Both the position numbers and the translations under genes were made by a program. This document shows, piece after piece, positions 10,355 to 62,883 of a stretch of DNA of 64,000 nucleotides; position 1 is the stretch's first letter, and every line of letters begins with the position of its first letter. The notes under the pieces are model-generated. The model saw nothing but the letters and a program-made list of their open reading frames with translations. It was not told where the DNA came from and made no database searches. The DNA comes from Martelella sp. NC20 (GTDB lineage Bacteria; Pseudomonadota; Alphaproteobacteria; Rhizobiales; Rhizobiaceae): assembly GCF_013459645.1 (NCBI RefSeq), contig NZ_CP054861.1, positions 4,452,001 to 4,516,000 on the forward strand. Direction: 5' to 3'.

Positions 10355-10378
10355 CTCATGTCCCAACCGTTTAGCCTA

Positions 10379-10580: not shown

Positions 10581-10601
10581 CAGTGTCTTTCCGCGGGTCG
10601 A

Positions 10602-12658: not shown

Positions 12659-12732
12659 GACAGGACTGGCCTTTCAGCGTTGATTGCTCCGGTTCGCCGG
12701 GGGATCGCCCTCAGGCGGCACCGAAAGAAGAG

Positions 12733-13845: not shown

Positions 13846-13854
13846 GGGTTGAGA

Positions 13855-14304: not shown

Positions 14305-14323
14305 ATCGTAGGTTCTCCCCTCG

Positions 14324-15364: not shown

Positions 15365-15448
15365 TATTTCGCCCGACGCTCCAGTTTCTTTATCTTGACG
15401 CGTCGGGTTAACGAAAAACCGGATTCCACTTTTTCGCCCGACGCTCTA
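15365..15448. repeat. Rhizobial repeat element beside ybgC
   Basis: The 14-base sequence TTTCGCCCGACGCT occurs twice (15367-15380 and 15432-15445), flanking a section with GACGCGTCGGGTTAACG and AAAAACCGG. The unit resembles a dispersed Rhizobiaceae intergenic repeat. Within the 15044-15445 gap it is the only element seen, apart from an AT-richer stretch near 15120-15250 that could hold the tolQ promoter. Confidence 0.5.
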
Positions 15449-15901: not shown

Positions 15902-15999
15902 GTCCGCCTCGTTCGTCAGAAATCCGGACATAACTAGGTCAACACATTCCGCCGCGCAATACGACAATCCCGAAGCAGGTTTCCCACAGCCTGTGGCGA

Positions 16000-16033
16000 T
16001 TGCTTAAAAAAAACATTGCATTTATGTCATAAT
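16000..16033 (+). promoter_or_regulatory. sqdB: AT-rich promoter region of sqdB
   Basis: TTGCTT (16000-16005) and TATGTC (16023-16028) are 17 bases apart, and CATAAT (16028-16033) is an alternative -10. The same stretch contains TATGTCATAATA, which resembles one half of a rhizobial PhoB box. Only one half-site is visible, so phosphate control is speculative. Confidence 0.35.
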
Positions 16034-16103
16034 AAAAGCGTTTAGAGTGCGTCCAAACAACAGCGCATTGATTGAAATCGTTAGAACGGATCGGAGAAGC
16101 TCG

Positions 16104-47514: not shown

Positions 47515-47969
47515 CCGAATCTTCGAACCCCCTCCAAATCCGCAACGAGCGGACATTTCTCCAGGATCGCGACGCCCTCTTTTCCGCCGTGGCCGACCCG
47601 GCAAGGCTCGCGCGCTGGTGGGGACCACACGGTTTTGAAAACCGGATCACCGCCTTCGACTTCCGTCCCGGCGGAAACTGGCGGATCGTCATGACCGCAT
47701 CAAACGGCAACGCATTCGACAACCACTGGACGTTTCTGGCGATCGAGGACGATCGCTTGATCCGCACCCGCCATCATCTGCCGATGCATGATTTCGTGCT
47801 GGAAATGCGGTTTGACGACCATGCCGGCGGAAGCCGCCTCGTCTGGGTGATGGAGTTCGAGCCGACCGAGGAGAACCAGGCAATCGCGCATTTCCTCAAG
47901 GCGGCCAACGACCAGAACCTCGAACGTCTCGACAACTTTCTTCAGGAGGAAACCACCGATGTCCGCTGA
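47511..47969 (+). CDS. SRPBCC (AHSA1-like) protein 1
   Basis: The 152-residue protein has the START/SRPBCC hydrophobic-pocket fold seen in Aha1-like proteins. The typical segments are VADPARLARWWGPHGFEN and FDFRPGGNWRIVM in the first half and VWVMEFEPTEEN near the end. Family members often bind hydrophobic ligands, but few have a known function. It is in frame with ATGA overlap behind the ArsR gene and overlaps the start of a second family member by 11 bases. A role in sensing or detoxifying a lipophilic compound is only a guess. Confidence 0.88.
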   Translation: MTESSNPLQIRNERTFLQDRDALFSAVADPARLARWWGPHGFENRITAFDFRPGGNWRIVMTASNGNAFDNHWTFLAIEDDRLIRTRHHLPMHDFVLEMRFDDHAGGSRLVWVMEFEPTEENQAIAHFLKAANDQNLERLDNFLQEETTDVR

Positions 47970-48420
47970 GCTCGATCCCGCGAAAATCTTCCGCTTCGAA
48001 CGCCTGTTGAAGGCGCCGCGCGCGCTTGTCTTCGAGGCGCTTTCCGATCCCGCCCATCTCGACCGGTGGTGGGGGCCGGATGGTTTTGTGAACGAGACCC
48101 ACGCGATGGATTTTTCCGTCGGCGGGCTGTGGCGCTACACAATGCACGGCCCCGACGGCAAGGACTGGCCGAACTGGATCCGCTATCACGAGATCACGCC
48201 CGGCCGGATCAGCTACGAGCATGGCGGCGAGATCGGCGAGCCGGCGCATTTCCGCGGCATCATCGACCTCGACGAAACCGAGGACGGCACGCTGATGACG
48301 ATGACGCTGGTGTTCGAGACCAGTGAGGCCCGCGACGCCACCCTGAAACATGGCGCCGAGGACGGCGGAAGGCAGACGCTGGCGAAATTCGACGCCTACC
48401 TTCAGCGGATCAAGCCGTGA
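47959..48420 (+). CDS. SRPBCC (AHSA1-like) protein 2
   Basis: The 153-residue protein is a relative of the preceding one: FERLLKAPRALVFEALSDPAHLDRWWGPDGFVNETHAMDF, then GGLWRYTMHGPDGK and MTLVFETSEARDATLKHG. The two share the WWGP-GF core and may have arisen by duplication. It starts inside the end of the first gene, so translation is coupled. Its stop (48418-48420) lies directly against the stop of a small minus-strand gene. Confidence 0.9.
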   Translation: MSAELDPAKIFRFERLLKAPRALVFEALSDPAHLDRWWGPDGFVNETHAMDFSVGGLWRYTMHGPDGKDWPNWIRYHEITPGRISYEHGGEIGEPAHFRGIIDLDETEDGTLMTMTLVFETSEARDATLKHGAEDGGRQTLAKFDAYLQRIKP

Positions 48421-48594
48421 TCACGCACTGATGATATTGTGCCAGGGAACATAGGGAAAGCCGGTGTTGTCGTCGGCTCCATCCGCGCCCACGACCAGAA
48501 TGTCGTGTTCGCGGTAGGCGCCCGCGCCCGGCATGCCCGGTTCGAAGCGTTCGTCAAAACGCTCAAACGTCCGGGCGTGCAGGACCATCATCAT
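48421..48594 (-). CDS. Small hypothetical protein (57 aa)
   Basis: Three ATG codons in a row (48586-48594) follow GGGAGG at about 11 bases, and the frame runs 57 codons to a stop at 48421-48423. The second half (YREHDILVVGADGADDNTGFPYVPWHNI) has the look of a folded protein, but I know no family. A GTG nine codons upstream (48619-48621) could also start it, giving 66 residues. Its stop abuts that of the SRPBCC gene on the other strand. Confidence 0.5.
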   Translation of the reverse strand: MMMVLHARTFERFDERFEPGMPGAGAYREHDILVVGADGADDNTGFPYVPWHNIISA

Positions 48595-48827
48595 GGTGAT
48601 TGCGATCCTCCCGTCGCGCACGACGCCATCGGCGCGGAGGTTCGCCGCAGCAAAATCTAGCCTGGGTCCCCAGTCTTGGCAATGCCGCTCGCGGCAGTCC
48701 CGTCATTGTCATAATCGGCTGCTAAAATCGCACACTTGAAATCGGATCAAGGTTGACCGAGGCATTATACGTTGATATCAACTCAAAATCCGAGCAATAC
48801 CGGTTTTTAGGACAGGGAGAAAACCGC

Positions 48828-49604
48828 ATGGCGAACGAATTTGTCTGGTACGATCTGATGACGAGCGATGCCGAATCCGCGAAGGCATTTTACAAGAATG
48901 TCGTCGGCTGGAAGGCCCAGGATGCAGGTCATCCCGACATGCCTTACACGCTTCTGGGCATCGAGGGCTATGAGAGCCATGTCTGCGGCCTGATGGAACT
49001 GACCGAGGACATGTGCGCGCAGGAAATTCCGCCGCACTGGATGGGCTATGTCCATGTCGAGGATGTCGACGCCAAGGCCGCAGAATTCAAAGACGCGGGC
49101 GGAGGCGTGCTCATGGCGCCGCATGACATTCCGGGAGTCGGCCGTTTCGCGGTCGTGAGCGATCCGCAGGGCGCGGCGATCAGTATTTTCAAGCCGATCC
49201 CGCCGGAAGGCGGAATGCCGGAAATGCCGCCGGGAGGCGCGACCGGGACCGTGGCATGGCGCGAACTCTACACCCGCGATCCCGAAGCTGCCGTCACCTT
49301 CTACGGCAAGATGTTCGGCTGGAAGCAGACGCAGGCGATGGATATGGGGCCAATGGGCAAATACCACCTCTTCGCCGGCGATGGCGACGATCTTGGCGGC
49401 ATGATGCGGATGCCGGAGGGCATGCCGGTTCCAGCCTGGAGCTATTACTTCCAGGTCGACGGCCTCAACGCCGCCATCGAACGGGTGAAGGCCGGCGGCG
49501 GGCAATTGCTCAACGGCCCGATGGACGTGCCGGACGGCGCGGTCGTCGCCCAGTTTCTCGATCCGCAGGGCGCGTACTTCTGTCTCGTCTCGATGCAGCG
49601 CTGA
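48828..49604 (+). CDS. VOC (glyoxalase/bleomycin-resistance fold) protein with two domains
   Basis: The 258-residue protein contains two VOC units. The first (residues 1 to about 125) starts FVWYDLMTSDAESAKAFYKNVVGW and the second (about 135-258) starts VAWRELYTRDPEAAVTFYGKMFGW. Both have the beta-alpha-beta-beta-beta pattern and the ending ISIFKP or YFCLVSM. Such proteins are often metal-dependent glyoxalase-like enzymes or binding proteins; substrate unknown. The start at 48828 has GGGAGA eight bases upstream; a longer frame begins at 48753 without support. A palindrome GTTGATATCAAC (48771-48782) lies upstream. Confidence 0.88.
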   Translation: MANEFVWYDLMTSDAESAKAFYKNVVGWKAQDAGHPDMPYTLLGIEGYESHVCGLMELTEDMCAQEIPPHWMGYVHVEDVDAKAAEFKDAGGGVLMAPHDIPGVGRFAVVSDPQGAAISIFKPIPPEGGMPEMPPGGATGTVAWRELYTRDPEAAVTFYGKMFGWKQTQAMDMGPMGKYHLFAGDGDDLGGMMRMPEGMPVPAWSYYFQVDGLNAAIERVKAGGGQLLNGPMDVPDGAVVAQFLDPQGAYFCLVSMQR

Positions 49605-49628
49605 AGCAGCGACGCCATCACAACACGC

Positions 49629-49661
49629 TTGCGCCGGAGGCACCTCCGGCGCAAATTTTTG
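49629..49661 (+). terminator. Terminator after the VOC gene
   Basis: TTGCGCCGGAGG (49629-49640) and CCTCCGGCGCAA (49643-49654) form a 12-base perfect stem with ATTTTTG following. It is a strong rho-independent terminator 24 bases after the stop. Confidence 0.93.
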
Positions 49662-49793
49662 TTCGGACCGATCCGGTGCGGACCGGTTCTCCATCCCCAC
49701 GCGCGCAAAAACGAAGTATCAGAGTGCATCCGCGATTCGGGGAAACGCGGACATATCTCGCGTAAACCTGGTGTCGAATCCGGAGCATAGATC

Positions 49794-51317
49794 ATGACCG
49801 AAACCGTCAAGGCGACCCGCCGCGAATGGGTGGGCCTCGTGGTCCTGTCCGTCGCCTGCCTGGTCTATTCAATGGACCTTTCGGTGCTGTTCCTCGCCAT
49901 CCCCTCGATCGTGCGGGAACTGGAACCGACCGCGCCGCAGATTTTGTGGATGAACGATATCTACGGCTTCATGGTCGCGGGCTTCCTGGTGACGATGGGC
50001 GGTCTGGGCGACCGGATCGGGCGGCGCAAGCTGCTGCTGATCGGGGCCGCCGCCTTCGCCGTGACCTCGATTCTCGCCGCCATGGCCCCGACGGCGGGCA
50101 TGCTGATCTTCGCCCGCGCGCTGCTCGGCATTGCCGGCGCCACGGTGGCGCCCTCGACGCTGTCGCTGATCATGAACATGTTTCGCGACGAGAACGAACG
50201 CAACCGCGCGATCGGCGTCTGGGGCACGGCCTTTGCGCTCGGCGGCCTCGTCGGCCCGCTGATCGGCGGGGTGCTGCTCCATTTCTTTCACTGGGGCTCG
50301 GTGTTCCTGATCAACGTGCCGATCATGCTCGCGCTTCTGGCAAGCGGCCCGTTTCTGCTGCCGGAATACCGTTCGGGCGAGAGCCCTCGGCTCGATATCG
50401 CAAGCGTATTGCTGTCGCTTGCGACCGTGTTGCCGGTGATCTACGGGCTGAAGCAGATCGCGGCCCATGGCTTTCACGCAACCGACCTGTTGCCGGTGGC
50501 CGCCGGGATTGCCTTCGGCGTTCTGTTTGTCCGGCGGCAAAACCGGATAGCCGAGCCGTTGATCGACCTCAAGCTCTTCCGTCTGCCGGCCTTCACGGTA
50601 TCGATGCTGGTCAACATGGCGGTGGTGTTCTTTATCTTCTCGATCTTCCTGCTGCAGGCCCAGTTCTTCCAGCTCGTGCTGGGAATGAGCCCGCTGGAGG
50701 CAGCACTCTGGAGCGCCCTGCCCGGCCTGTTCTTCACCGCCATGTCGCTGCAGGCCTGGCGCGTGACCAACCGCTTCGGCCCGATCCCGACCGTCGTCAC
50801 AGGACTGGCGATCAACGCGGTCGGGGCCGCGGCCATCGGCCTTTCGGCCTATTACCAGAGCCTTGCCGGGATGCTGATCGCCAATGTCATCCTCGGCGCA
50901 GGCTTCATTCCGGCCATCCTGACGACCACCGGGCTGATCATCGGCTCGGCGCCGCCCGAGCGCGGCGGGGTCGCCTCGGCGATGTCGGAAACCTGCGCCG
51001 AATTCGGCGGCGCTCTCGGCGTCGGCCTCCTGGGAAGCCTTGCGACAATCGTCTACCGCTTCGCCATGCAGCCGGTGGACCTTTCGGCCTTGCCTGCGAC
51101 CGCCGCCTACGAAACCGGCCAGACGCTCGCCGGCGCCGTAGACGCCGCCCGCGAGCTTGGCGTCAGCGATGCCCCGTGGCTCGCCGCCGCGCGCGATGCC
51201 TATTGCGCAAGCTTCGCCGTCTGCGCGCTGGTCGCGGTGATCGCCCTGCTCGCCCTGTCTTTTGCCGCAAACAGGGTTTACCGCAAGGAGCCGCCGCGCC
51301 CGGTGGAAGCGCACTGA
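49794..51317 (+). CDS. MFS transporter of the DHA2 (EmrB/QacA-type) family
   Basis: The 507-residue inner-membrane protein has 14 hydrophobic segments, the count of DHA2 drug:proton antiporters. The first helix region has SMDLSVLFLAIPSIVREL, then the motif A-like GDRIGRRK between helices 2 and 3, and motif C-like LGGLVGPLIGGVLL. The second half has AEFGGALGVGLLG. It likely exports a drug or metabolite. GGAG precedes the ATG at nine bases. The nearby ArsR and VOC genes might respond to the same stress, but nothing shows it. Confidence 0.92.
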   Translation: MTETVKATRREWVGLVVLSVACLVYSMDLSVLFLAIPSIVRELEPTAPQILWMNDIYGFMVAGFLVTMGGLGDRIGRRKLLLIGAAAFAVTSILAAMAPTAGMLIFARALLGIAGATVAPSTLSLIMNMFRDENERNRAIGVWGTAFALGGLVGPLIGGVLLHFFHWGSVFLINVPIMLALLASGPFLLPEYRSGESPRLDIASVLLSLATVLPVIYGLKQIAAHGFHATDLLPVAAGIAFGVLFVRRQNRIAEPLIDLKLFRLPAFTVSMLVNMAVVFFIFSIFLLQAQFFQLVLGMSPLEAALWSALPGLFFTAMSLQAWRVTNRFGPIPTVVTGLAINAVGAAAIGLSAYYQSLAGMLIANVILGAGFIPAILTTTGLIIGSAPPERGGVASAMSETCAEFGGALGVGLLGSLATIVYRFAMQPVDLSALPATAAYETGQTLAGAVDAARELGVSDAPWLAAARDAYCASFAVCALVAVIALLALSFAANRVYRKEPPRPVEAH

Positions 51318-51420
51318 CGCGCTCCGGCCCGAAAAAGGCGGCCACGGCCGCCATCGCTGACCGATTGACGATTTGTCTGGAAATCGCGCCGCCGCATCTG
51401 TTATAAGTTTCGCCAGCTAT

Positions 51421-51462
51421 GAAACTGGTTCCGGGGTCACGCTTCGGAACCTGTTTCTTTTT
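51421..51462 (+). promoter_or_regulatory. greA: Terminator-like hairpin in the greA leader
   Basis: GAAAC-T-GGTTCCG (51421-51433) pairs with CGGAACC-T-GTTTC (51445-51457) with a single T:T mismatch, and five T follow (51458-51462). TTATAA at 51401-51406 could be a -10 element just upstream, with only a weak -35. That would make this an early terminator that yields a short leader RNA and limits greA. It might instead be the terminator of the transporter gene that ends 104 bases before. Confidence 0.6.
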
Positions 51463-51585
51463 GTGTTGCAGAACGGCGGAAGCTTCCCAAGTGAATGGCT
51501 GTTCGCCCCACGAAATCAAAGAACACGCACGGATGTGACGGAGCCCGTCTCCGCCGCGTCGAAAGTCAGACCAAAGGACAAGAAT

Positions 51586-52062
51586 ATGGTCGAGAAAGTA
51601 CCGATGACGAAGATCGGGGCTGCCAAGCTCAACGAGGAACTGCGCTGGCGCCAGCAGGAGGAACGTCCCCGGATCATTCAGGCAATCGCGGAAGCGCGCG
51701 CCCATGGCGACCTTTCCGAAAATGCCGAATACCACGCCGCCAAGGAAGCCCAGAGCTACAATGAGGGCCGGATCGGCGAACTTGAGGATGTCACCACCCG
51801 CGCGGAGATATTCGACCCCTCCAAGATGTCGGGCGGCAAGGTCCGTTTTGGCGCGACCGTCAAGCTCGTGGACGAGGACACCGAGGAGAAGAAGGTCTAC
51901 CAGATCGTCGGCGACCTCGAAGCTGACGTGAAGGAAGGCCGTATCTCGATCTCTTCCCCGATCTCGCGCGCCCTGATCGGCAAGGAAGTCGGCGATTCGA
52001 TCGAGGTGAATGCGCCGGGTGGAGCCCGCGCCTATGAAATTCTGGAAGTCTTCTGGAAATAG
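51586..52062 (+). CDS. greA: Transcription elongation factor GreA
   Basis: GreA rescues backtracked RNA polymerase by stimulating transcript cleavage. The 158-residue protein has the N-terminal coiled-coil with [40 protein letters not shown], whose acidic tip (DLSENAEY) enters the polymerase channel. A C-terminal FKBP-like domain follows, with [19 protein letters not shown] precedes the ATG at 51586; a frame starting at 51373 runs through the leader hairpin and is not used. The leader is discussed separately. Confidence 0.97.
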
Positions 52063-52090
52063 AACGACTTCTCGCATCCAGTGGTCTGAC

Positions 52091-53152
52091 ATGACGATCA
52101 AGGTCAAAGTTCTAAGCCGTTCCCAGCCGATAAACCCCAGACTCACCCGGCAATTGCCCACAGGCTGGTCCGAAGCCAACGGCCTCGATTTCGTGTTCGA
52201 TCCCGATGCGAGGGTTTACGACTGGCTGGTCGTCTATGACGACCTTCCCCGGTCTACCGGCATAACCGAGGAACGGCTTGCCTGCCCGCCCGAAAACACG
52301 TTGCTGGTCACCTCGGAGCCAAGCGGCGTCAAGGTCTACGGCCGGTCTTTTGTCCGCCAGTTCGGTCATGTCCTGACCAGCCAGGAGCCGATTGCGCTGC
52401 GCCATCCCGGCCGTATCTGGCACCAGGCCGGGCTGACATGGTTTTATGGCATGGACGAAGATCACAATGACTTTCTGTCCGTCGACGAGATCGCACACCG
52501 CTTCCCCGAAAAGACCGAGACCGTGGCGACCGTCTGCTCCAGCAAGCGGCAGAGCCATACGCTTCACCGCCTGCGCTACGACTTCACGGAATATGCCGCC
52601 AGACACCTGCCCGAGCTTCAGGTCTTCGGGCATGGCCGCCGCTATATGGACGACAAGGCCGAGGCTATCGACAGGTTTCGCTACCATCTGGCGATCGAAA
52701 ACCACGTCGCGCCGCACCACATCACCGAAAAACTCTCGGACCCGTTTCTCGGCCTGTCGCTGCCATTCTATTTCGGCGCGCCCAATGTCTTCGACTACTT
52801 TCCCGCCGAAAGCGTCATTCCCGTCGACATCCGCAAGCCCGCCGAAGCCGTGACGATGATAAGAGCGGCAATCGACTCGAATGAATACGAAAAGCGCTTG
52901 CCGGCCATCATCGAGGCCAGGCGGCGCGTGATCGAGGACTATAACTTTTTTTCGCTGGTTTCACAGATCGTCCACCGGGACGAAGCCGCTCGCTATATTC
53001 CCGATGTCACCAGGATCCGCAGCCAGCACGCCGCCCGCAAGGCGGCGCCGGTTTCGGGTATCGCAGATTTCGCCTTCCGCACGGCCCTTCAGTTCAAGAA
53101 TCGCATCGCGAACCTGCGCTCGCCTGACTGGAGCAGCCCCGAGGCGTTTTAG
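52091..53152 (+). CDS. Glycosyltransferase family 10 (fucosyltransferase-like) protein
   Basis: The 353-residue protein has the C-terminal GT10 signature, here YHLAIENHVAPHHITEKLSD, followed by FLGLSLPFYFGAPNVFDYFP. This corresponds to the GDP-sugar-binding region of alpha-1,3-fucosyltransferases, and the N-terminal half is more variable. Members decorate lipopolysaccharide O-chains or other glycans. The donor cannot be told here. No membrane helix is seen, so the enzyme is probably cytoplasmic or peripheral. It starts 28 bases after greA with a weak ribosome site. Its stop overlaps that of the convergent exporter gene. Confidence 0.85.
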   Translation: MTIKVKVLSRSQPINPRLTRQLPTGWSEANGLDFVFDPDARVYDWLVVYDDLPRSTGITEERLACPPENTLLVTSEPSGVKVYGRSFVRQFGHVLTSQEPIALRHPGRIWHQAGLTWFYGMDEDHNDFLSVDEIAHRFPEKTETVATVCSSKRQSHTLHRLRYDFTEYAARHLPELQVFGHGRRYMDDKAEAIDRFRYHLAIENHVAPHHITEKLSDPFLGLSLPFYFGAPNVFDYFPAESVIPVDIRKPAEAVTMIRAAIDSNEYEKRLPAIIEARRRVIEDYNFFSLVSQIVHRDEAARYIPDVTRIRSQHAARKAAPVSGIADFAFRTALQFKNRIANLRSPDWSSPEAF

Positions 53153-53910
53153 AGCCGCCACCAGGCCGAGATGCCGAGGACAATGCCGAAAAGCGCCGAA
53201 CAGACCATCGCCGACAGCGCCACGTTGCGATAGCTCGCCTCAGAACCGCGCCGGAAGAAATACGCGCCAAGCGCCGATCCGGCCGCGCACAGGGGCGCGG
53301 AAAACAGCCCGAGCAGGACGACATGGAGGTGGAGCGAGCCGTCAAACGCCGCCGTCGCCAGAGCGAAAACCGCGAGAATCGCAAAGAGGATTATCATCGA
53401 CGCCCGCTTGGCCCGCGCCGGCACCTCGCGCGCGAGAAAATAGGCGACGACCGGCGGACCGGGGGCTGCGGCAAGCCCGCTGAACAGGCCTGCGAAAAAA
53501 CCGACCGCCGTGGTCGCGACCGGGCCCGGACGGGCTCCGAGCGAAAACCTGAAAAACAGCGCCGCAGCGGCCGCGGCGGTAATCGAGCCGATCACGATCT
53601 GCGCCAGCCAGAGCGGCACGACGGAGATGAACAGCAACCCCACCGGCGTGCCGAACAGCGCTGCAAGCGTCAACATGCCGACGGCCCGGCGATCGGCATG
53701 GCCGATACATTCCGGCAGATCGATCAGGGTCAGCGAGATCTGCACGACCAGCACCGCCAGAACGGCGTCGGCCGGCGGCACCAGCAGCACCAGAAACGGC
53801 ATCGCAACCAGCGCCATGCCGAATCCGGCCAGTCCGCGCAGGAAAGCGCCCGCCGCGAGACAGGCCGCAAAGCCAGCAAACACCGGAAGGGAAATGGCAA
53901 GGTCGGGCAT
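53149..53910 (-). CDS. TauE/SafE-family sulfite exporter candidate
   Basis: The 253-residue membrane protein has seven or eight hydrophobic segments and the family-typical FLRGLAGFGMALVAMPFL at the N terminus, with FFAGLFSGLAAAPGPPVV opening the second half. Such proteins export sulfite, sulfoacetate or related organic acids. Here the gene is the last of the GMC-xsc-pta series on one strand, 53 bases after pta, and Xsc releases sulfite, so sulfite export is the natural reading. The transported substrate is inferred from context. Its stop overlaps the stop of the GT10 gene. Confidence 0.88.
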   Translation of the reverse strand: MPDLAISLPVFAGFAACLAAGAFLRGLAGFGMALVAMPFLVLLVPPADAVLAVLVVQISLTLIDLPECIGHADRRAVGMLTLAALFGTPVGLLFISVVPLWLAQIVIGSITAAAAAALFFRFSLGARPGPVATTAVGFFAGLFSGLAAAPGPPVVAYFLAREVPARAKRASMIILFAILAVFALATAAFDGSLHLHVVLLGLFSAPLCAAGSALGAYFFRRGSEASYRNVALSAMVCSALFGIVLGISAWWRL

Positions 53911-53963
53911 TGGCCCTCACCGCATGCCGACGGAACAGGCGAACCTGCGGACGCGAAAACAGC

Positions 53964-54968
53964 TCATTCCTGCGCGCCCGCCTGGCAGGCGGTCACCGCG
54001 ATCATATCGAGCACGTCCTGAGCCGAGCAACCGCGCGACAGGTCGTTTGCCGGCTTGTCGAGGCCCTGAAGCACGGGACCGATGGCCGACGCGCCGCCAA
54101 TGCGCTGGGCGATCTTGTAGCCGATATTGCCGGCCTGAAGATCGGGAAAGATGAAGATATTGGCCTCTCCGCCGAGCGGTTCGGCAGCGCCCTTGGACTT
54201 TGCGATCTCGGGCACGAACGCCGCATCGAACTGCAGCGCGCCGTCGACCAGCAGATCCGGCCGGTTGAGCCGCACCAGCTTCACGGCCTGCTCGACCTTG
54301 TCGACCATGGGATGGGAAGCGCTGCCGCGCGTGGCAAAGGAAAGCATCGCGATCCGCGGCGTGTCGCCGGTCAGCATGGTATAGGAGCCTGCCGCCGCGA
54401 TCGCGATCTTGCTGAGTTCCGCCGCATCCGGATCGATGACCAACCCGCAATCGGAAAACAGGAAAGCGCCCTTCCTGGAATGGTGCTCGCCTTCCAGCAT
54501 CATCAGGAAGAAGCTGGAAACCAAACGGGTGCCGGGTGCGGCCCCGATCACCTGGATCGCGGTTCTGACGACATCGGCGGTCGAGCACGCGGCTCCCGAC
54601 ACCGTGCCGTCGGCATGCCCGGCCTTCACCATCAGCGCCGCGAAGACATAAGGGTTGCGCGCAGCCTTGGCGGCATCCTCCTCGGTGATGCCCTTGTGTT
54701 TGCGCAGCGTGAAATAGAGCTTCGAAAGCTCGGGCAGAAGCGGCGAGCTTTCCGGGGCGACGACCTCGATGGCTTCGGGACGGGCGATGCCGATCCCGGC
54801 GCAAAGCGCGTCGATGTCGCCTTCCGCGCCGACCAGAATAATACGGGCAACCCCCATATCCGCCGCCTTGCAGGCGGCCTCCAATACGCGCCTGTCGTGC
54901 GATTCCGGCAGAATGATCGTCTTGTTCAGGCGCTTCGCATTGGCGAAAATCTTCTCAAGCTGGTTCAT
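53964..54968 (-). CDS. pta: Phosphate acetyltransferase
   Basis: Pta converts acetyl phosphate and CoA to acetyl-CoA. The 334-residue protein is the short form without the N-terminal regulatory domains. It shows the family motifs TIILPESHDRRVLEAA, VSGAACSTADVVRTAIQVIG, VIDPDAAELSKIAI and NIFIFPDLQAGNIGYKI. Directly downstream of xsc, it disposes of the acetyl phosphate that Xsc makes. AAGGTGAG precedes the ATG. The gap of 151 bases to xsc holds a hairpin that may lower its expression. Confidence 0.95.
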   Translation of the reverse strand: MNQLEKIFANAKRLNKTIILPESHDRRVLEAACKAADMGVARIILVGAEGDIDALCAGIGIARPEAIEVVAPESSPLLPELSKLYFTLRKHKGITEEDAAKAARNPYVFAALMVKAGHADGTVSGAACSTADVVRTAIQVIGAAPGTRLVSSFFLMMLEGEHHSRKGAFLFSDCGLVIDPDAAELSKIAIAAAGSYTMLTGDTPRIAMLSFATRGSASHPMVDKVEQAVKLVRLNRPDLLVDGALQFDAAFVPEIAKSKGAAEPLGGEANIFIFPDLQAGNIGYKIAQRIGGASAIGPVLQGLDKPANDLSRGCSAQDVLDMIAVTACQAGAQE

Positions 54969-55075
54969 GTTCTCACCTTACGATTACGATTGCGCTGATC
55001 GGGACGACGAGGCCCATAAAAGGCATTTAGGGGACGATTGGCAAGATCGATCGCGGCCTCATTTTCAACAGATAA

Positions 55076-55094
55076 AGGCGAGGAGGCCTCGCCT
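55076..55094 (-). terminator. Hairpin between xsc and pta
   Basis: AGGCGAGG (55076-55083) pairs with CCTCGCCT (55087-55094) with three unpaired bases. On the minus strand TTATCTGTTG follows, so it is a weak or partial terminator after xsc. Confidence 0.4.
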
Positions 55095-55119
55095 CCCCGC
55101 CATTGGCTCCGCCGTCAGG

Positions 55120-56895
55120 TCAGACGGCCTGTTTGCGCATGTCCGCCCGGTTGATGCCGGCGACCGAAACCGGCTTCTTCATCGCGTCGCGACGGAAGGG
55201 CTCGCCGAGTTCCTGGTTCAGCACCACCTCGATGAAGGTCGATTGCTTTTCCTTCATCTGGCGTTCGACAGCCTTTTCGAGTTCGGCGGAAAGCTGGTCC
55301 ATCGATGTCACCTGCACGCCTTCGACGCCGCAGGCTTTCGCGATATCGGCGTAGCGGACATCGAGCGAGAGTTCGGTACCCACGAAATTATCGTCGAACC
55401 ACAGCGTGGTGTTGCGTTTTTCGGCGCCCCACTGGTAGTTGCGGAAGATCACCATCGTGATCGCCGGCCACGTGTCGCGCTTCAGCGACACCATCTCGTT
55501 CATCGAGATGCCGAAGGCGCCGTCGCCCGCAAAACCGACAACCGGCGTGTCCGGCTGGCCGATCTTGGCGCCGACGATCGCCGGGAAACCGTAACCGCAG
55601 GGACCGAACAGCCCGGGGGCGAGATATTTGCGCCCCTCCTCGAAGGTCGGGTAGGCATTGCCGATCGCGCAGTTATTGCCGATGTCGGAGGTGATGATCG
55701 CATCCTTGGGCAGCGTCTTCTGGATCGCGCGCCATGCCATGCGCGGGCTCATCCGCTCCGGTTCGCGGTCGCGGGCGCGCTCGTTCCAGCTGGTGCCCGC
55801 ATCGTCCTCCTCATGATCGAGCGAGGTCAGTTCCTGCGCCCAGGCGGACTTGGTCTTCGCGATCAGCGCCTTGCGGTCGTCGCGATCGATATCACCCGCA
55901 TTGCCGGCAAGCCTGTCGAGAATCCCGGTGGCGACCTTGTTCGAATCGCCGACGATGCCGACACTCACAGCCTTGGTGAGGCCGATCCGGTCCGGATTGA
56001 TATCGACCTGAATGATCGCCGCATCCTTCGGCCAGTAGTCGATGCCGTAGCCCGGCAGCGTCGAGAACGGGTTGAGGCGGGTGCCGAGCGCCAGCACGAC
56101 ATCGGCCCTGGCGATCAGCTCCATCGCCGCCTTTGAGCCATTATAGCCAAGCGGCCCGGCAAACAGCGGATGATTGCCGGGAAAGGCGTCATTGTGCTGG
56201 TAGCCGACGCAGACCGGCGCATCCAGCCGTTCGGCAAGCGCCCTCGATGCCTCGATCGCGCCGCCGAGAACGACGCCCGCGCCATTGAGGATCACCGGGA
56301 ATTTGGCTTCGCTCAGAAGCTTCGCGGCGCGGTCGATCGCCTGTTCACCGCCGGCCGGGCGTTCGAATTCGACGATCGCCGGCAGTTCGATATCGATGAC
56401 CTGGGTCCAGAAATCGCGCGGAATGTTGATCTGCGCCGGGCCGCAGGCGCGCTTGGCCTTCAGGATCACGCGGTTCAGCACCTCGGCGATGCGGGACGCG
56501 TCGCGCACCTCTTCCTGATACGCGACCATGTCCTTGAACAACGCCATCTGCTCGACTTCCTGAAAGCCGCCCTGCCCGATGGTCTTGTTGGCGGCCTGCG
56601 GGGTCACCACCAGAAGCGGGGTATGGTTCCAGTAGGCGGTCTTGACCGGCGTGACCAGCGAGGTGATGCCCGGCCCGTTCTGGGCAACGACCATCGACAT
56701 CTTGCCGGTCGCGCGGCTGTAGCCGTCGGCCATCATTCCGGCATTGCATTCATGGGCACAGTCCCAGAATTCGATACCGGCCTGCGGGAAAAGGTCGGAA
56801 ATCGGCATCATCGCCGAACCGATGATGCCGAAGGCGTGCTCGATGCCGTGCATCTGAAGGACTTTGACGAAAGCCTCTTCGGTGGTCATTTTCAT
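55120..56895 (-). CDS. xsc: Sulfoacetaldehyde acetyltransferase
   Basis: Xsc is a thiamine-diphosphate enzyme that turns sulfoacetaldehyde and phosphate into acetyl phosphate and sulfite, the desulfonation step shared by taurine and isethionate breakdown. The 591-residue protein has the three-domain layout of the acetolactate-synthase group: catalytic Glu in CAHECNAGMMADGYSR, and the cofactor motif GFAGDGAFGISMNEMVSL near the C-terminal third. RNYQWGAEKRNTTLWFDDNFVGTEL is characteristic of Xsc. GGAG precedes the ATG. It lies 32 bases after the GMC dehydrogenase gene and before pta, which fits this reaction. Confidence 0.95.
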   Translation of the reverse strand: MKMTTEEAFVKVLQMHGIEHAFGIIGSAMMPISDLFPQAGIEFWDCAHECNAGMMADGYSRATGKMSMVVAQNGPGITSLVTPVKTAYWNHTPLLVVTPQAANKTIGQGGFQEVEQMALFKDMVAYQEEVRDASRIAEVLNRVILKAKRACGPAQINIPRDFWTQVIDIELPAIVEFERPAGGEQAIDRAAKLLSEAKFPVILNGAGVVLGGAIEASRALAERLDAPVCVGYQHNDAFPGNHPLFAGPLGYNGSKAAMELIARADVVLALGTRLNPFSTLPGYGIDYWPKDAAIIQVDINPDRIGLTKAVSVGIVGDSNKVATGILDRLAGNAGDIDRDDRKALIAKTKSAWAQELTSLDHEEDDAGTSWNERARDREPERMSPRMAWRAIQKTLPKDAIITSDIGNNCAIGNAYPTFEEGRKYLAPGLFGPCGYGFPAIVGAKIGQPDTPVVGFAGDGAFGISMNEMVSLKRDTWPAITMVIFRNYQWGAEKRNTTLWFDDNFVGTELSLDVRYADIAKACGVEGVQVTSMDQLSAELEKAVERQMKEKQSTFIEVVLNQELGEPFRRDAMKKPVSVAGINRADMRKQAV

Positions 56896-56927
56896 GGGTG
56901 GTCTCCTCTACGATATTCTATTCGGTG

Positions 56928-58544
56928 TCACGCGATCCGGCGGCTATCCTCAAGCACGAGATCGCTGCATTTCTCGCCGATCATGATGGCCGGTGCATTG
57001 GTGTTGCCCGAGACGATTTCCGGCATGATGGAACAATCGGCGACGCGAAGCCCGGCAATGCCGCGCACCCGCAGACGCTCGTCGACAACCGCGCGTTCGT
57101 CCTGCCCCATGCGGCACGTGCCGGTCGGATGATAGATCGAGGCGGTATGGTTGCGCGCCCAGTCCAGCGTACCCTCGTAGTCATCCATGGCAAGCTCGGC
57201 GGTGGGCCTGAACTCCTCGGCGATCTTCGATTTGAGCGGGGCGTGGCGCGCGATCTTGCGGGCGATCTTCACGCCCTCGACGATGGTGCGCCGGTCGGTC
57301 TCGGTCGACAGATAATGCGGGAAGATCTTCGGATAGGTGCGCGGGTCCGGCCCGTTGAGCACGATCTCGCCCCGGCTTTCGGGACGCAACTGGCAGACCG
57401 ACATGGTGAAGGCGGAAAACGGATGCACGCCCTCGCCCGGATTGTCGGCGGACCATGGCTGGACATGAAACTGGATATCCGGGGTTTCCACATGGTCGCC
57501 GGTGCGCATGAAGCCGGTGGCGAGGCTTGCCGCCATCGCCATGGGGCCGGCGCGGAACATCGCGTATTTCAGCGCGATCCGCGCCTGATTGAACAGCGAA
57601 CGGACCTCGTCATTCAGCGTCGGCTCGTTGCATTTGAACACTAGACGAGCCTGAAGATGATCCTGCAGGTTGCGCCCGACATCCGGCGCGTGATGGACGA
57701 CCTCGATGCCGTTATCCTTCAGCCGCGCGCCGTCGCCGATGCCGGAGAGCATCAGCAGTTGCGGCGAGTTGATCGTGCCGGTGGACAGGATCACCTCGCG
57801 CCGGCAGGTCACCAATGCGTCCCGGTTGCCGTTCGCCAGATAGCTCACGCCGGTGGCGCGGCCATTTTCGATAACAACCTTCTTCACCAGCGCGCCGGTG
57901 ACGATCTTCAGGTTGGGGCGTTTCTTGACCGGATTGAGGAAGGCGACGGCGGCGCTGCAGCGCCTGCCCTTGCGGGCGGTGAGCTGAAAATAGCCGACGC
58001 CCTCCTGGGTCTCGCCGTTGTAATCCGGATTGAACGGGTAGCCCGCCTCGTTGGCGGCCGCCACCCAGGCATCGCAGATCGGGCGTTGCAGCCGCATGTT
58101 CGAGACCGACAGTTCGCCCTCGGTGCCATGAAACTGGTCGGCTCCGCGCTCCTGGTTCTCCGAGCGCTTGAACAGCGGCAGCACATCTTCCCAGCTCCAG
58201 CCGCGATTGCCCATCTGCGCCCAGCGGTCATAATCCTGTTGCTGTCCGCGCACATAAAGCAGGCCGTTGAGCGAGGATGAGCCGCCGAGCACCTTGCCGC
58301 GCGGCCAGTCGAGCGAACGGCCGTTAAGTCCGGGATCGGGCTCGGTCTTGTAGCACCAGTCGACCGTCGGATTGTGCATCATCTTGAAATAGCCGACGGG
58401 GATGTGGATCCAGGGATTGCGATCGGCAGGGCCCGCCTCCAGCAACACGACGCTGACATCGGGGTCGGCGCTCAGCCTGTTGGCGATGACGCAGCCGGCG
58501 GAACCCGCGCCGACGATCACATAATCTGCTTCCAGCCGCTCCAT
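56928..58544 (-). CDS. GMC-family alcohol dehydrogenase, candidate isethionate dehydrogenase
   Basis: The 538-residue flavoprotein has the FAD motif DYVIVGAGSAGCVIANRLS at its N terminus, GKVLGGSSSLNGLLYVRG, and the active-site His and Asn in IYHPTGTCRMG and SGNTNAPAIMIGEK. By sequence it is close to choline dehydrogenase. Because it lies directly before xsc and beside a TRAP transporter and an IclR gene, I infer that it oxidises isethionate to sulfoacetaldehyde, the role of IseJ in Cupriavidus necator. Choline or another alcohol remains possible on sequence alone. It heads the four-gene minus-strand operon. Confidence 0.85.
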   Translation of the reverse strand: MERLEADYVIVGAGSAGCVIANRLSADPDVSVVLLEAGPADRNPWIHIPVGYFKMMHNPTVDWCYKTEPDPGLNGRSLDWPRGKVLGGSSSLNGLLYVRGQQQDYDRWAQMGNRGWSWEDVLPLFKRSENQERGADQFHGTEGELSVSNMRLQRPICDAWVAAANEAGYPFNPDYNGETQEGVGYFQLTARKGRRCSAAVAFLNPVKKRPNLKIVTGALVKKVVIENGRATGVSYLANGNRDALVTCRREVILSTGTINSPQLLMLSGIGDGARLKDNGIEVVHHAPDVGRNLQDHLQARLVFKCNEPTLNDEVRSLFNQARIALKYAMFRAGPMAMAASLATGFMRTGDHVETPDIQFHVQPWSADNPGEGVHPFSAFTMSVCQLRPESRGEIVLNGPDPRTYPKIFPHYLSTETDRRTIVEGVKIARKIARHAPLKSKIAEEFRPTAELAMDDYEGTLDWARNHTASIYHPTGTCRMGQDERAVVDERLRVRGIAGLRVADCSIMPEIVSGNTNAPAIMIGEKCSDLVLEDSRRIA

Positions 58545-58591
58545 CAGCCCCCCTCAAGCCCTGAATTTGCCGCCGAAGCGACGAAAGTATC

Positions 58592-58632
58592 TTGCAAGGG
58601 CATTCGATATATGATTGATTTCGATACCGCAA
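58592..58632. promoter_or_regulatory. Overlapping divergent promoters of the sulfonate cluster
   Basis: On the plus strand TTGCAA (58592-58597) and TTGATT (58615-58620) are 17 bases apart. On the minus strand TTGCGG (58627-58632) and TATCGA (58604-58609) are also 17 apart. TTCGATA occurs twice (58603-58609 and 58620-58626). These could drive both arms and hold the IclR operator. The -10 elements are poor, so the call is tentative. Confidence 0.35.
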
Positions 58633-58661
58633 GTCTCATTTTTTCATAGGGAGGGAAGAAA

Positions 58662-59897
58662 ATGACGACACTGGACGAGAAACTGCGTGGCATATCGCGC
58701 CGCGATCTTTTCAAATTATCGGGACGTTTCGGACTGAGCTCGACGCTGCTTGCGGCAAGCTCGATGGCGGGTGTCATCACCCTGCCGAGCCTGGCAAAAG
58801 CCGTTGAATCCACATATGAAAAGCGCTTCGGCAATGAGCCGAAATACACGCTGAAATACGGCGCGTCCGGCTTCAACGCCCAGAACACGCTGATCGAGCG
58901 CGTCGGCTGCCTCGAATTCGCCCGCGATCTCGAGGAGCGCACCAACGGCCTGGTCCGGGTCGAGTTCATCGGCGACAACCAGATCTGCGGCCAGCTCAAC
59001 TGCGTCGAGAAGACCCAGCTCGGCATCGTCGACATGTACACCGCCTCGACCCAAAACTCGGCCGGCGGCGCGCCTTATCTGAACGTGCTGGACTATGCCT
59101 ATATGTTCCCGGGCCGGGCGTCACAGTATCACTTCTTCTATAGCCCCGAGTCGCAGCGCATCCTGCGCGATCCGCTGGAAAAGCGCCATGGACTGAAGTT
59201 CCTGTTCACGCATTGCGAACTGCGCGGCATCCAGCTCGGCCTGAAATATTCCGACAAGCCGACGATCACCAGGCTCGACGAACTGTTCGGCACCAAGAAC
59301 CGCGTGACCGGCACCCAGCTCGGCCGTATCGCCATGCAGCTTCTGAACCTCAATCCGGTTCCGATCGCATGGGAAGAAACGCTGGACGGCCTGAAGCAGG
59401 GCCTGATCGACGGCGCCGAAACCTGGGCATCGGCCGTGGCCTACGCCAACATGGCGCCGGTGGTCTCGCAATCCGTGGACCTGAAATTCTTCTGCGGCAC
59501 CGAGCATACCTCGATGAACGCCAAGGTGTTCGACAGCTTCGAGCCGGAAGTGCAGGACGCCGTGATGGAATCGTCCTACCTGACGCAGGTGCTGATCCAG
59601 GGCGCCAACGAGGCGGCTCTGCTGAACACGGTCGGTTTCTCCGATCCGCAGCTTCCCAATACGATATTCGCCGACAACAATGTCCGTCCGGCCTTCCTCG
59701 CCGACGACCAGATCAAGATGGCGGAAGAAATGTGCTCGCCGGAATACAATCCGGAGCCCTGGGCACAGTGGCGCGAGCGCCTCAACAACTGGGCCGGCGG
59801 GATCGACACCTATACCGAGATCAGCGCCATCGCGCGCGAAGTCCCGGCAGACATGCGGCCGGAAAACGTCGAGCCGCGCCGCTGGTGGAAGAGCTGA
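58662..59897 (+). CDS. TRAP transporter, substrate-binding protein (DctP-type)
   Basis: The 411-residue protein begins with a twin-arginine signal, SRRDLFKLSGRFGLSS (residues 12-27), ending near SLAKA at 47, so it is exported folded by Tat. The body has the DctP fold: ERVGCLEFARDLEERTNGLVRVEFIGDNQICGQ early, and VTGTQLGRIAMQLLNLNPVPIAWEETLDGLKQGLIDGAETWASAV in the ligand region. It would bind the sulfonate in the periplasm. GGGAGGG precedes the ATG. It is divergent from the GMC gene and first in the transport operon. Ligand is inferred from context. Confidence 0.92.
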   Translation: MTTLDEKLRGISRRDLFKLSGRFGLSSTLLAASSMAGVITLPSLAKAVESTYEKRFGNEPKYTLKYGASGFNAQNTLIERVGCLEFARDLEERTNGLVRVEFIGDNQICGQLNCVEKTQLGIVDMYTASTQNSAGGAPYLNVLDYAYMFPGRASQYHFFYSPESQRILRDPLEKRHGLKFLFTHCELRGIQLGLKYSDKPTITRLDELFGTKNRVTGTQLGRIAMQLLNLNPVPIAWEETLDGLKQGLIDGAETWASAVAYANMAPVVSQSVDLKFFCGTEHTSMNAKVFDSFEPEVQDAVMESSYLTQVLIQGANEAALLNTVGFSDPQLPNTIFADNNVRPAFLADDQIKMAEEMCSPEYNPEPWAQWRERLNNWAGGIDTYTEISAIAREVPADMRPENVEPRRWWKS

Positions 59898-59991
59898 TCC
59901 GCTTCCGGTGATATAGAATCTGCAGCCGGCGTTTCGAGGAGAGATGCCGGCTGTCGACAATAATACCGATCAGTTCGGTTTGGGGAGGAGA

Positions 59992-60666
59992 ATGACGTTG
60001 GATTCGTTGTTTGGCGGCGCCTGGTCGATCGTCGCGTCGATCGGAAGCTGGGATTCATGGACGATAAGTGACGCAATGCGATCCGATGGCGCATGGCTCG
60101 TCGGTCTGGTTGTGACGATTGTGGGCGGCCTGCTGGTGGCGTTCATCTATGCCCGCCTGCCGTTCCTCGAAAGACATCTCGAAAAGAGTGTGATGATCTG
60201 GTCCTATCTCCTGATCGCCACGATCCTCGCCGTCGAAGTCGTCAGACGTTTCGTGTTCTCCGTTCAGGAGCCATGGTCGACCACGCTGCCGCCATTCCTG
60301 TTCCTTTTCATGACCTGGGCCGGCTGCTCCTATAATATGAAATTCCGTAACCATCTGAGCTTCGCCGAGTTTCGCGGCATGCTTCCGCGCGCCGGACAAT
60401 TCGCCTGCCTCATGCTCGATGCCGCGCTCTGGGTGGTGTTTTCCTGGGTGGTGATCGTCACCTCGACGCGGGTGGTGTTCAATGCGGCCGCCAACTTCCA
60501 GATCCTGCTTGGCACCGATAACGTGCTGCAATGGTGGCTTCTGACCTCCGTGCCGGTCAGCTTCCTGCTGATGGCCGGTCGGGCCTTCGAGAATCTGGCG
60601 ATCGACTATCAGAATTACCGGACCGGCGCGCCGCTGATCGCCGCCTCCGCCCAATTCGGCGACTGA
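59992..60666 (+). CDS. TRAP transporter, small membrane subunit (DctQ-type)
   Basis: The 224-residue protein has four main hydrophobic segments, for example WLVGLVVTIVGGLLVAFIY and MIWSYLLIATILAVEVVRRFVF, the usual DctQ topology. An ending with an extra helix near TSVPVSFLLMAGRAF follows. The start at 59992 is chosen because GGGGAGGAG lies just before it; an ATG at 59944 sits too close to its ribosome site. It follows dctP by 94 bases and is 10 bases before dctM. Confidence 0.88.
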   Translation: MTLDSLFGGAWSIVASIGSWDSWTISDAMRSDGAWLVGLVVTIVGGLLVAFIYARLPFLERHLEKSVMIWSYLLIATILAVEVVRRFVFSVQEPWSTTLPPFLFLFMTWAGCSYNMKFRNHLSFAEFRGMLPRAGQFACLMLDAALWVVFSWVVIVTSTRVVFNAAANFQILLGTDNVLQWWLLTSVPVSFLLMAGRAFENLAIDYQNYRTGAPLIAASAQFGD

Positions 60667-60676
60667 GGAGCATTTC

Positions 60677-62038
60677 ATGTCCGATTCTCTCTGGGTCACC
60701 CTCATCTCTCTCGGCGCCACAGCGGTTTTCCTGCTCGGCGTCCCCGTTCTGCTGGTCATCGGCATGTGGGTCATCGGCATGAGCCTGCTGCTCGGCCTGC
60801 CGCTCGACAATCTCGGCTCCGCGCTTTCCGACGTCTTCACCGATGGCTTCGCGCTGCTCGCCATGCCGCTGTTCATCCTGACCGGCGACCTGATCAACCA
60901 GTCCGGCATTGCGCGCCGCATGTCGGATTTCGCCTATTCGTGCCTCGGCTGGCTGCGCGGCGGCCTGGCCATGGCCGCGATCGGCGCCTGCGGCCTGTTT
61001 GCCGCGATCTCCGGCTCCAATTCGGCGACCACCGCCACGATCGGCTCGATGCTGCATCCGGAAATGAAGAAGGGCGGCTATGACGAGCGCTTCTCGGCGG
61101 CAACGGCTGCCGCCGGCGGCACGCTCGGCATCATCATTCCGCCGTCGATCATCTTCATCGTCTACGGCTTCCTGATGAACCTGCCGATCTCCGAACTGTT
61201 CGTCGCCGGCATCATTCCCGGCCTGCTGATGGGCTTTTCGATGATGCTGTTCTGCTGGGTCATCTGCTCGATCAACGGATGGGGCCATCTGATCCGGCTT
61301 CAGCCTTCGCGGGTACTCAAGACCGCGATCGGCTCGTGGCTCGGCTTCTTTGCCATCGGCATCGTGCTGTGGGGCATCTACACCGGCAAGTTCTCTCCGA
61401 CAGAGGCCGCCGCTGTCACGGTCGGCTTCTGCGTCATCGTCGGCTTCATCAGCCTGCCGCTTCACCGCCTGATGGGCTCGCCCAGCGAGGACCGTCCGCC
61501 AAGCGAACGCAGCTACGGCGAGATGCTGGTGGTGCGCGGCTTCAGCCCGCTCGACGTTCCGTCGATCACGCTGCGCTCGGCGCAGATCACCGGCATTCTG
61601 GCGCCGCTGATCGCGATCTCCGTGGTCATGCAGCAAATTCTTTCGGTGATGGGGGCCGAAGACGCGATCGGCGGTTTCGTGCGCTCCATGGGCGGCTATT
61701 ATCCGGTGCTGTTCACGGCGATGGGGATCGTCTTCATCACCGGCATGGTGCTCGAAAGCCTGCCGACCACGATCATCATGGCGCCGATCCTCGCCCCGAT
61801 CGCGGCCTCGATCGGCGTTGACCCGATCCAGTTCGCGGTGATCTTCCTGGTCGGCGCCTCGATCGGCTTCATCACGCCGCCCTACGGGCTGAACCTTTAC
61901 GTCGCCGCGGGCGTTACCGGCGTGTCCTATTTCAGGATACTCCGTTATATCTACCCCTATATCATTGCGCTTGTCGCGGTGTGGATACTGGTGGCGCTTG
62001 TGCCTTCGCTCTCGACGATGCTACTGCCGAACCGGTAA
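60677..62038 (+). CDS. TRAP transporter, large membrane subunit (DctM-type)
   Basis: The 453-residue protein has about 12 membrane segments and the conserved DctM stretches MPLFILTGDLINQSGIARRMSDFAYSCLG, ATTATIGSMLHPEMKKGGYD, AAGGTLGIIIPPSIIFIVYG and LVGASIGFITPPYGLNLYVAAG. It uses the sodium gradient to move the substrate across the inner membrane. GAGGAG precedes the ATG. With the binding protein and the small subunit it makes a complete TRAP system placed next to the sulfonate catabolic genes. Confidence 0.95.
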   Translation: MSDSLWVTLISLGATAVFLLGVPVLLVIGMWVIGMSLLLGLPLDNLGSALSDVFTDGFALLAMPLFILTGDLINQSGIARRMSDFAYSCLGWLRGGLAMAAIGACGLFAAISGSNSATTATIGSMLHPEMKKGGYDERFSAATAAAGGTLGIIIPPSIIFIVYGFLMNLPISELFVAGIIPGLLMGFSMMLFCWVICSINGWGHLIRLQPSRVLKTAIGSWLGFFAIGIVLWGIYTGKFSPTEAAAVTVGFCVIVGFISLPLHRLMGSPSEDRPPSERSYGEMLVVRGFSPLDVPSITLRSAQITGILAPLIAISVVMQQILSVMGAEDAIGGFVRSMGGYYPVLFTAMGIVFITGMVLESLPTTIIMAPILAPIAASIGVDPIQFAVIFLVGASIGFITPPYGLNLYVAAGVTGVSYFRILRYIYPYIIALVAVWILVALVPSLSTMLLPNR

Positions 62039-62109
62039 AAGTCCGATAGTGGCGGCGCGATCGCCATTGCCATATTCGAAACCGACCAAAGTGAACGGCA
62101 GCATTACCA

Positions 62110-62883
62110 GTGGATGATCAGACCGGCCAGATACCGACAAACCTTCGCCTGCTGATGGTGCTCGAGGCGCTCGCCGAAGCGGGAGCGCCGGTCACGCCAA
62201 CGGAAGTCAATCAGACGCTCGGCCTGCCGAAGCCGACGATCCACCGGCTGTTTTCGACGCTCGAGGCCGAGGGCTTCATCCAGCGCGAGATCGACGGCCG
62301 CGGCTATTCGCCCGGCAGCCGCCTCAGGATCATGTCGGCGGGCATCATGTCGTCGCTGAGGATCCGCACCGCCCGTCAGGCGATCCTGACGGCGCTCGCC
62401 GAACAGATCAACGAGACCTGCAACATCTCGCTGCCCGACCGCGACGCGATGATCTATCTCGAGCGCGTCGAGACCAAATGGCCGCTGAGGATCCAGCTTC
62501 CCGTGGGCACGCGGGTGCCGTTCTACTGCACATCCGCCGGCAAGATCTACCTGAGTTCGCTCGATGACAAGCATCTCAACGGCTATCTGAACGCGGCCGA
62601 ACTCAGCCCGCGCGCGGCCAACACCATGACATCGCCCGAGGCGGTGATGGCCGAGATCAAGCGCATCCGCAAAAACGGCTATTCCACCGACAACGAGGAA
62701 TTCATGGACGGCATGATCGCCGTCGCGGTTCCGATCCGCGACAGCTTCGGCCGCCTTGTCTCCTCGCTCTCCTTCCACGCCCCGTTGCAGCGGCTCTCGC
62801 TCGACGAGGCGATCGGCCATGTCGGCCTGCTGAACGAGGCCTCCGCCAGGCTCTCGGCGCTCATCAGCGCTCCAGCGGACTGA
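62110..62883 (+). CDS. IclR-family transcriptional regulator
   Basis: The 257-residue protein has an N-terminal winged helix (LLMVLEALAEAGAPVTPTEVNQTLGLPKPTIHRLFSTLEAEGFI) and a C-terminal IclR effector domain (LPVGTRVPFYCTSAGKIYLSSL and GYSTDNEEFMDGMIAVAVPI). It starts with GTG at 62110 and has a weak ribosome site. It follows dctM by 71 bases in the same direction. The isethionate clusters described elsewhere also carry an IclR-type regulator (IseR), so it likely controls the divergent operons in response to the sulfonate. Direct evidence is lacking. Confidence 0.92.
   Translation: MDDQTGQIPTNLRLLMVLEALAEAGAPVTPTEVNQTLGLPKPTIHRLFSTLEAEGFIQREIDGRGYSPGSRLRIMSAGIMSSLRIRTARQAILTALAEQINETCNISLPDRDAMIYLERVETKWPLRIQLPVGTRVPFYCTSAGKIYLSSLDDKHLNGYLNAAELSPRAANTMTSPEAVMAEIKRIRKNGYSTDNEEFMDGMIAVAVPIRDSFGRLVSSLSFHAPLQRLSLDEAIGHVGLLNEASARLSALISAPAD

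Follow-up and report, generated by a model that had tools for sequence, protein, structure and literature searches.

A candidate isethionate dissimilation cluster in Martelella sp. NC20 and a putative IseR operator in its divergent promoter

Eight genes at positions 53149-62883 of a 64,000-nucleotide stretch of contig NZ_CP054861.1 from Martelella sp. NC20 (hereafter the window) very probably form a dissimilation set for isethionate (2-hydroxyethanesulfonate), with substrate, reaction and direction of transport deduced from sequence comparison. Isethionate is a sulfonate which marine bacteria take from phytoplankton (PMC9870897). In the proposed pathway, isethionate would be imported by a TRAP transporter composed of a substrate-binding protein (SBP), DctQ and DctM, and oxidized to sulfoacetaldehyde by an IseJ-like flavoenzyme of the GMC family. 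A dedicated Xsc would convert sulfoacetaldehyde and phosphate into sulfite and acetyl phosphate, Pta would yield acetyl-CoA from the latter, and a TauE-type membrane protein could remove sulfite or a related anion, while a SoeABC-like enzyme encoded elsewhere may oxidize sulfite. Both arms of the cluster would be controlled by an IseR-like regulator of the IclR family via one operator in the shared promoter. The core of the proposal, namely isethionate uptake, GMC oxidation, Xsc cleavage, acetyl-CoA formation by Pta and IclR control, had already been put forward in the initial annotation and is supported by a gene order shared with the mutant-tested ise genes of Ruegeria pomeroyi, by co-occurrence with xsc, by the presence of different xsc lineages beside the same core, and by the separate location of taurine-type and choline genes in the same genome. 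The pathway is of a known kind, and its compact arrangement is also found in other genera; only the candidate operator may be new, judged by the open literature.

Gene content and known isethionate systems

The eight open frames form two divergent arms, and each of them is supported by Pfam or NCBIfam models, with scores judged against the curated cut-offs (given second in the following pairs of bit scores). The minus-strand arm comprises a gene for a TauE/SafE-family membrane protein (53149..53910; PF01925, 84.9 and 32.6), a candidate sulfite or sulfonate exporter which adjoins pta also in the related loci L103-L107, pta encoding phosphate acetyltransferase (53964..54968; TIGR00651, 335.8 and 311.2; PF01515, 377.7 bits), xsc encoding sulfoacetaldehyde acetyltransferase (55120..56895; TIGR03457, 934.7 and 676.4; PRK07525, 1029.4 and 620), and the gene of a GMC-family FAD dehydrogenase, an IseJ-like candidate isethionate dehydrogenase (56928..58544; PF00732 GMC_oxred_N, 187.8 and 23; PF05199 GMC_oxred_C, 128.2 and 24.6). 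The plus-strand arm encodes an IseK-like SBP (58662..59897; DctP PF03480, 87.1 and 23.4, with TRAP_S1 likewise over its cut-off), the IseL-like small permease DctQ (59944..60666; PF04290, 42.8 and 28.3), the IseM-like large permease DctM (60677..62038; TIGR00786, 290.7 and 268.45) and the IseR-like IclR-family regulator (62110..62883; IclR_C PF01614, 135.2 and 24; PF09339). Places and strands are those of the initial annotation, and its description of TauE, pta, xsc and GMC genes opposite a divergent TRAP transporter and IclR gene is confirmed by frames and model scores. The SBP starts with a Tat-like SRRDLFK motif (by eye) and shares 96% identity with its Martelella mediterranea IOP_24 counterpart; over the eight genes, dN/dS values against five Martelella-type loci range from 0.03 to 0.36.

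Among known isethionate genes, iseR is of the IclR type and iseJ of the GMC type. In R. pomeroyi DSS-3, iseR, iseM, iseL, iseK and iseJ correspond to SPO2355 to SPO2359 (PMC4334477), which matches the succession of regulator, TRAP transporter and dehydrogenase seen here in the order GMC-SBP-DctQ-DctM-IclR; iseJ is called flavin-dependent in the literature. In a mutant study (PMC10130141), impairment on isethionate is recorded for SPO2357 and SPO2358, which ties iseKLM to this compound. In contrast, xsc and pta of R. pomeroyi carry the distant tags SPO3561 and SPO3560 (PMC9870897), whereas xsc, pta and the TauE gene follow the GMC gene in the present cluster.

One of the related loci, L044 of genome G148 (positions 7479-16948), carries a GMC gene (53% identity), an IclR gene and an MFS gene beside DAO, SnoaL and pta genes and a MocR-type regulator, and an operator-like site precedes the GMC gene; the locus combines genes of the taurine type with others of the isethionate type. 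With its GMC, IclR and MFS genes it resembles the IseU-type arrangement, which includes an MFS transporter and differs from the cluster in the type of transporter and in a more distant GMC. IseU is named in PMC6453916. The IseG/IslA isethionate sulfo-lyase pathway of anaerobes has the substrate and often a TRAP transporter in common with the present one (PMC6453916), but breaks the C-S bond of isethionate itself in a radical reaction and does not involve IseJ.

Comparative evidence and alternative substrates

When named genomes were scanned with an SBP alignment, 271 relatives were obtained, and the best 80 of them, many from Ruegeria, are referred to as named loci. The GMC gene and both permease genes accompany the SBP gene in all 80, and the IclR gene is present in 78, the remaining two (L137 and L147) ending before its place. 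In 17 of the 80, xsc adjoins the GMC gene on the same strand, and all eight genes occur in the same order in five (L103-L107), with xsc and pta separated by an additional gene region in L105 and L107. Judged by tests which ignore phylogeny, xsc also co-occurs with the core at genome level: in a family sample of 151 genomes, it was found in 12 of the 13 whose GMC has at least 58% identity (this genome included) versus 30 of the 138 others (p=6e-7), in a class sample of 385, in 9 of the 10 that have the SBP versus 37 of the 375 that lack it (p=2e-8, or p=1.6e-7 without this genome), and in 54/61 SBP-positive versus 56/99 SBP-negative genomes of family f25 (p=1.2e-5), the latter 99 having been chosen from 333 by low handle number.

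Moreover, different xsc lineages stand beside the same core. A tree was built from 41 Xsc rows (17 core-linked and 24 unlinked, the unlinked ones selected from the loci at hand); in it, linked and unlinked sequences interleave, and the linked label needs seven changes, which may be gains or losses, all of them forced by well-supported branches. At the same time, linked genes also cluster, as none of 500 label shuffles gave as few as seven changes. The tree places the window Xsc together with linked sequences from Martelella and from roseobacters (11 rows, support 99/97), apart from copies 2 and 3 of its own genome. In L117 (Roseibium), Xsc groups with the taurine-type copy of Martelella sp. 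NC20 and GMC with those of L134 and L166, which, judged by these trees, shows an independent joining of xsc to the core. The linked Xsc of L111, L112, L109/L121 and L153 are found at further separate places.

Several observations, however, weigh against the isethionate assignment or its tie to xsc. R. pomeroyi is neither among the best 80 of the 271 named loci nor recognized among the f25 genomes, other Ruegeria species carry the core, and orthology to the R. pomeroyi ise genes rests on gene order and on these other species. An adjacent xsc is lacking in 63 of the 80 named loci, seven of which have a contig end at most 1.4 kb beyond the GMC gene, and no xsc was detected in 1 of 13 (family), 1 of 10 (class) and 7 of 61 (f25) core-positive genomes; in f25, moreover, xsc is common anyway. 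Loci L169, L170 and L181 have the same TRAP genes but a more distant GMC (54 to 59%). Of five contact residues compared with the isethionate-binding protein OaIseP, of which the SBP is a distant relative (E 5e-12), N217 and Y153 are unmatched (T254 and C185 in the SBP), and the SBP is about as near to a TRAP protein binding 2,3-dihydroxypropane-1-sulfonate (DHPS; E 7e-11).

The similarity to the DHPS binder is what favors the idea that the cluster serves other or broader hydroxysulfonates (DHPS, 3-hydroxypropanesulfonate or sulfoacetate), with isethionate as one substrate or none. This is improbable, as Xsc acts on sulfoacetaldehyde, the product of isethionate oxidation of the IseJ type (PMC6453916, PMC11423573), and the R. 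pomeroyi iseKLM mutants are tied to isethionate. The other three contacts compared, OaIseP R156, R177 and W200, align with SBP residues R188, R214 and W237, which are invariant in 32 SBPs; the contacts were taken from those holding isethionate (PMC11668362), with S95, N98, residue 77 and H244 left aside. As the two arginines bind the anionic sulfonate in OaIseP, such a pocket would suit an anion, which also speaks against choline. That the GMC protein is the choline dehydrogenase BetA, with xsc and pta placed beside it by chance, could be suspected from its score with the broad choline dehydrogenase subfamily model PRK02106, which lies just above the cut-off (616.2 versus 605). Yet the protein fails the BetA equivalog TIGR01810 (515.1 versus 732.1), which a separate gene elsewhere in the genome passes with 874 bits, and the GMC-TRAP-IclR core co-occurs with xsc across genomes. 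In a GMC tree of 42 rows with seven paralogues from the same genome, the window protein stands among GMCs of the same core cluster and outside these paralogues, several of which are on long, uncertain branches. The choline reading, most improbable on this evidence, was rejected because of the failed equivalog cut-off and the separate betA.

A taurine dissimilation locus with a lost or relocated deaminating enzyme would likewise contain xsc, pta and exporter genes, all common to taurine pathways, and one linked Xsc, that of L117, is nearest to the taurine-type copy of Martelella sp. NC20. The 6.1-Mb genome (three contigs), however, has three xsc genes over the cut-off, one of them in the cluster, with 76 to 78% mutual identity, and copy 3 (locus L010) lies with genes for a MocR-type regulator, another TRAP transporter, and SnoaL-like and DAO-type proteins. 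We read L010 as the probable taurine locus, its DAO/SnoaL pair presumably being the taurine dehydrogenase TauXY. Xsc and TRAP uptake are common to both loci, but L010 has the MocR-type regulator and the DAO/SnoaL pair where the cluster has IclR and GMC. The MocR-type, SnoaL and DAO proteins of L010 have no tblastn match in the window and none in the flanks of L103-L107, and its SBP and DctM match only their TRAP counterparts in the window. The statement of the initial annotation that no taurine dehydrogenase is nearby holds for the DAO/SnoaL type. As for the aminotransferase Tpa, none is found among the families of the eight cluster proteins, the M23 peptidase whose gene adjoins the cluster on one side, and the five genes on the other (47959-53152; AHSA1, glyoxalase, MFS, GreA and glycosyltransferase 10 by Pfam, all unrelated to the cluster), a search with a Tpa model not having been made. 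With a separate taurine-type locus at hand and its MocR-type, SnoaL and DAO proteins unmatched in the window, the taurine reading was rejected and is hardly credible, whereas isethionate as substrate, favored over taurine already in the initial annotation, is further supported by the ise-type gene order.

A few relatives depart from this general picture. In the family, L035 (8191-15121) and L042 (7937-14926), with GMC relatives of 58-63%, combine GMC and IclR genes with a TerC-like gene, a different long TRAP permease replaces the DctQ-DctM pair, and in L042 TauE-like and MFS-like genes are present as well (all by eye, from translations). The contigs of L124, L137, L164, L165, L167 and L180 end at most 0.5 kb beyond the GMC gene, at the expected place of xsc, perhaps a sign that the assembly broke at repeated copies of this gene. 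G485 is a core-positive genome in which xsc was not found. In L107 (Marinicella sp. W31; 5352-8700 and 12000-13400), frame changes seem to interrupt xsc, dctM and the GMC gene, perhaps through sequencing error, and on the short contig L096 (G496; 34-1608) a thiamine pyrophosphate enzyme 25% identical to Xsc is encoded near TRAP genes.

A candidate IseR operator

Between the GMC and SBP genes, 23 bases before the SBP start codon, lies a conserved promoter site, CGATACCGCAAGTCTCA (58622..58638, plus strand). In the window and in all 80 named loci, the GMC-SBP intergenic region holds a site that fits TGAGACT-N3-AGTCTCA with 10 to 14 of 14 matches, a conservation which is partly ancestry as the loci are related; mononucleotide shuffles of those regions reached at least 10 matches in 3.5% and at least 11 in 0.6%. 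A stricter regular expression still matches 78 of the 80 loci (not L111 and L121), and the pattern YGAKACNNNANGTMTCA has a single match in the whole genome, at 58622-58638 of the window, its reversed control having none. We read the site as a candidate IseR operator with a patchily conserved regulon, to which the regulator is presumed to bind. On balance, and by a modest margin of confidence, we favor the view that the near-palindrome TGAkACnnnAnGTmTCA of the iseJ/iseK promoter is the IseR operator, that IseR would also control unlinked xsc genes in trans in some genomes, and that linkage in the present cluster would bring xsc under the same site, an arrangement apparently reached more than once, with the site conserved across several alphaproteobacterial families.

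Control in trans was addressed with a weight matrix made from 26 distinct sites, which was applied to as much as 2.5 kb of sequence before xsc in f25 genomes, with a score limit of 15. Upstream of unlinked xsc, scores of at least 15 were obtained in 17 of 55 SBP-positive versus 3 of 45 SBP-negative regions (p=0.002), where the 55 are what remained of 63 SBP-positive xsc rows after removal of seven located in the cluster itself and of G304, already retrieved as L187, and the 45 what remained of 57 SBP-negative rows after removal of the 12 lowest-scoring ones. In each group, a contig end left about 0.8 kb of one region. Control scans gave 3 in 1000 dinucleotide shuffles and 0 in 100 with the reversed matrix. 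Thirteen of the 17 positive sites precede the xsc match by 50 to 272 bases, and the other four by about 1.7 kb. In L187, the site precedes a MocR-type gene, xsc, pta and a molybdoenzyme gene, while in L191 (G109) it is located about 200 bases before xsc.

Against such an operator and its regulon stand a contrast that weakens at stricter scores (13/55 versus 3/45 at 18, p=0.019; 8/55 versus 2/45 at 20, p=0.09), the 38 of 55 SBP-positive f25 regions without a site, and the three SBP-negative genomes that have one. Within the window's own family, a clear site near unlinked xsc was seen in only G109 of the seven core-positive genomes scanned (G085, G049, G010, G109, G077, G115 and G039), and the f68 genomes G335 and G507 have no clear site at the scanned xsc region. 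A sharing of the operator by xsc copies 2 and 3 of the genome itself was rejected, as neither matches the pattern and the best scores are 14.7 (about 6.9 kb from xsc) and 5.6. Scanning of the divergent promoter for the sigma-70 consensus found nothing. Among the matches listed in searches of the open literature, no account of an IseR/IclR isethionate operator and, for sulfonates, no mention of Martelella was found.

Fate of sulfite and biological significance

As no sulfite dehydrogenase had been seen, the initial annotation assumed that sulfite is exported unoxidized. This claim, which was based on the window alone, is not borne out at genome level. The sulfite oxidase domain PF03404 has no match in the whole genome, and a SoeA-like query retrieved one candidate (C1:5107586-5110378), with iron-sulfur (FeS) and DmsC-type partners, about 0.6 Mb from the cluster. 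We take this operon to be SoeABC-like and a candidate sulfite dehydrogenase; its SoeA-like protein scores over the cut-off of no NCBIfam model and is 61% identical to a molybdoenzyme encoded downstream of GMC-xsc-pta in L127 (724-6370; Ruegeria sp. HKCCA6707). There, GMC, xsc and pta genes are followed by genes for this molybdoenzyme, an FeS protein and a DmsC-type anchor, likely a sulfite dehydrogenase in the same unit. Given the SoeABC-like operon, sulfite oxidation, export or both are possible in Martelella sp. NC20. In some relatives, a YeiH-type gene adjoins xsc (tested in L105 and L117; PF03601, 221 and 218 bits), which fits a need to remove a sulfur anion.

Two side observations concern the other loci of the genome. 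A weak operator-like site (L186:7338-7354, score 15.0) precedes the SoeA-like gene by about 360 bp and could be due to chance given the number of loci scanned. xsc copy 2 (L009:8808-13863) is found near a gene of the choloylglycine-hydrolase family (CBAH) and a CitMHS/TrkA-C transporter gene, without a recognized source of sulfoacetaldehyde; N-acyl-taurine is our guess for such a source.

Taken as a whole, the cluster presents a known pathway as a single self-contained unit, found in Martelella-type genomes and in others. That different xsc lineages stand beside the same core supports the order of the pathway on comparative grounds, and the candidate operator may serve as a marker of isethionate regulons.

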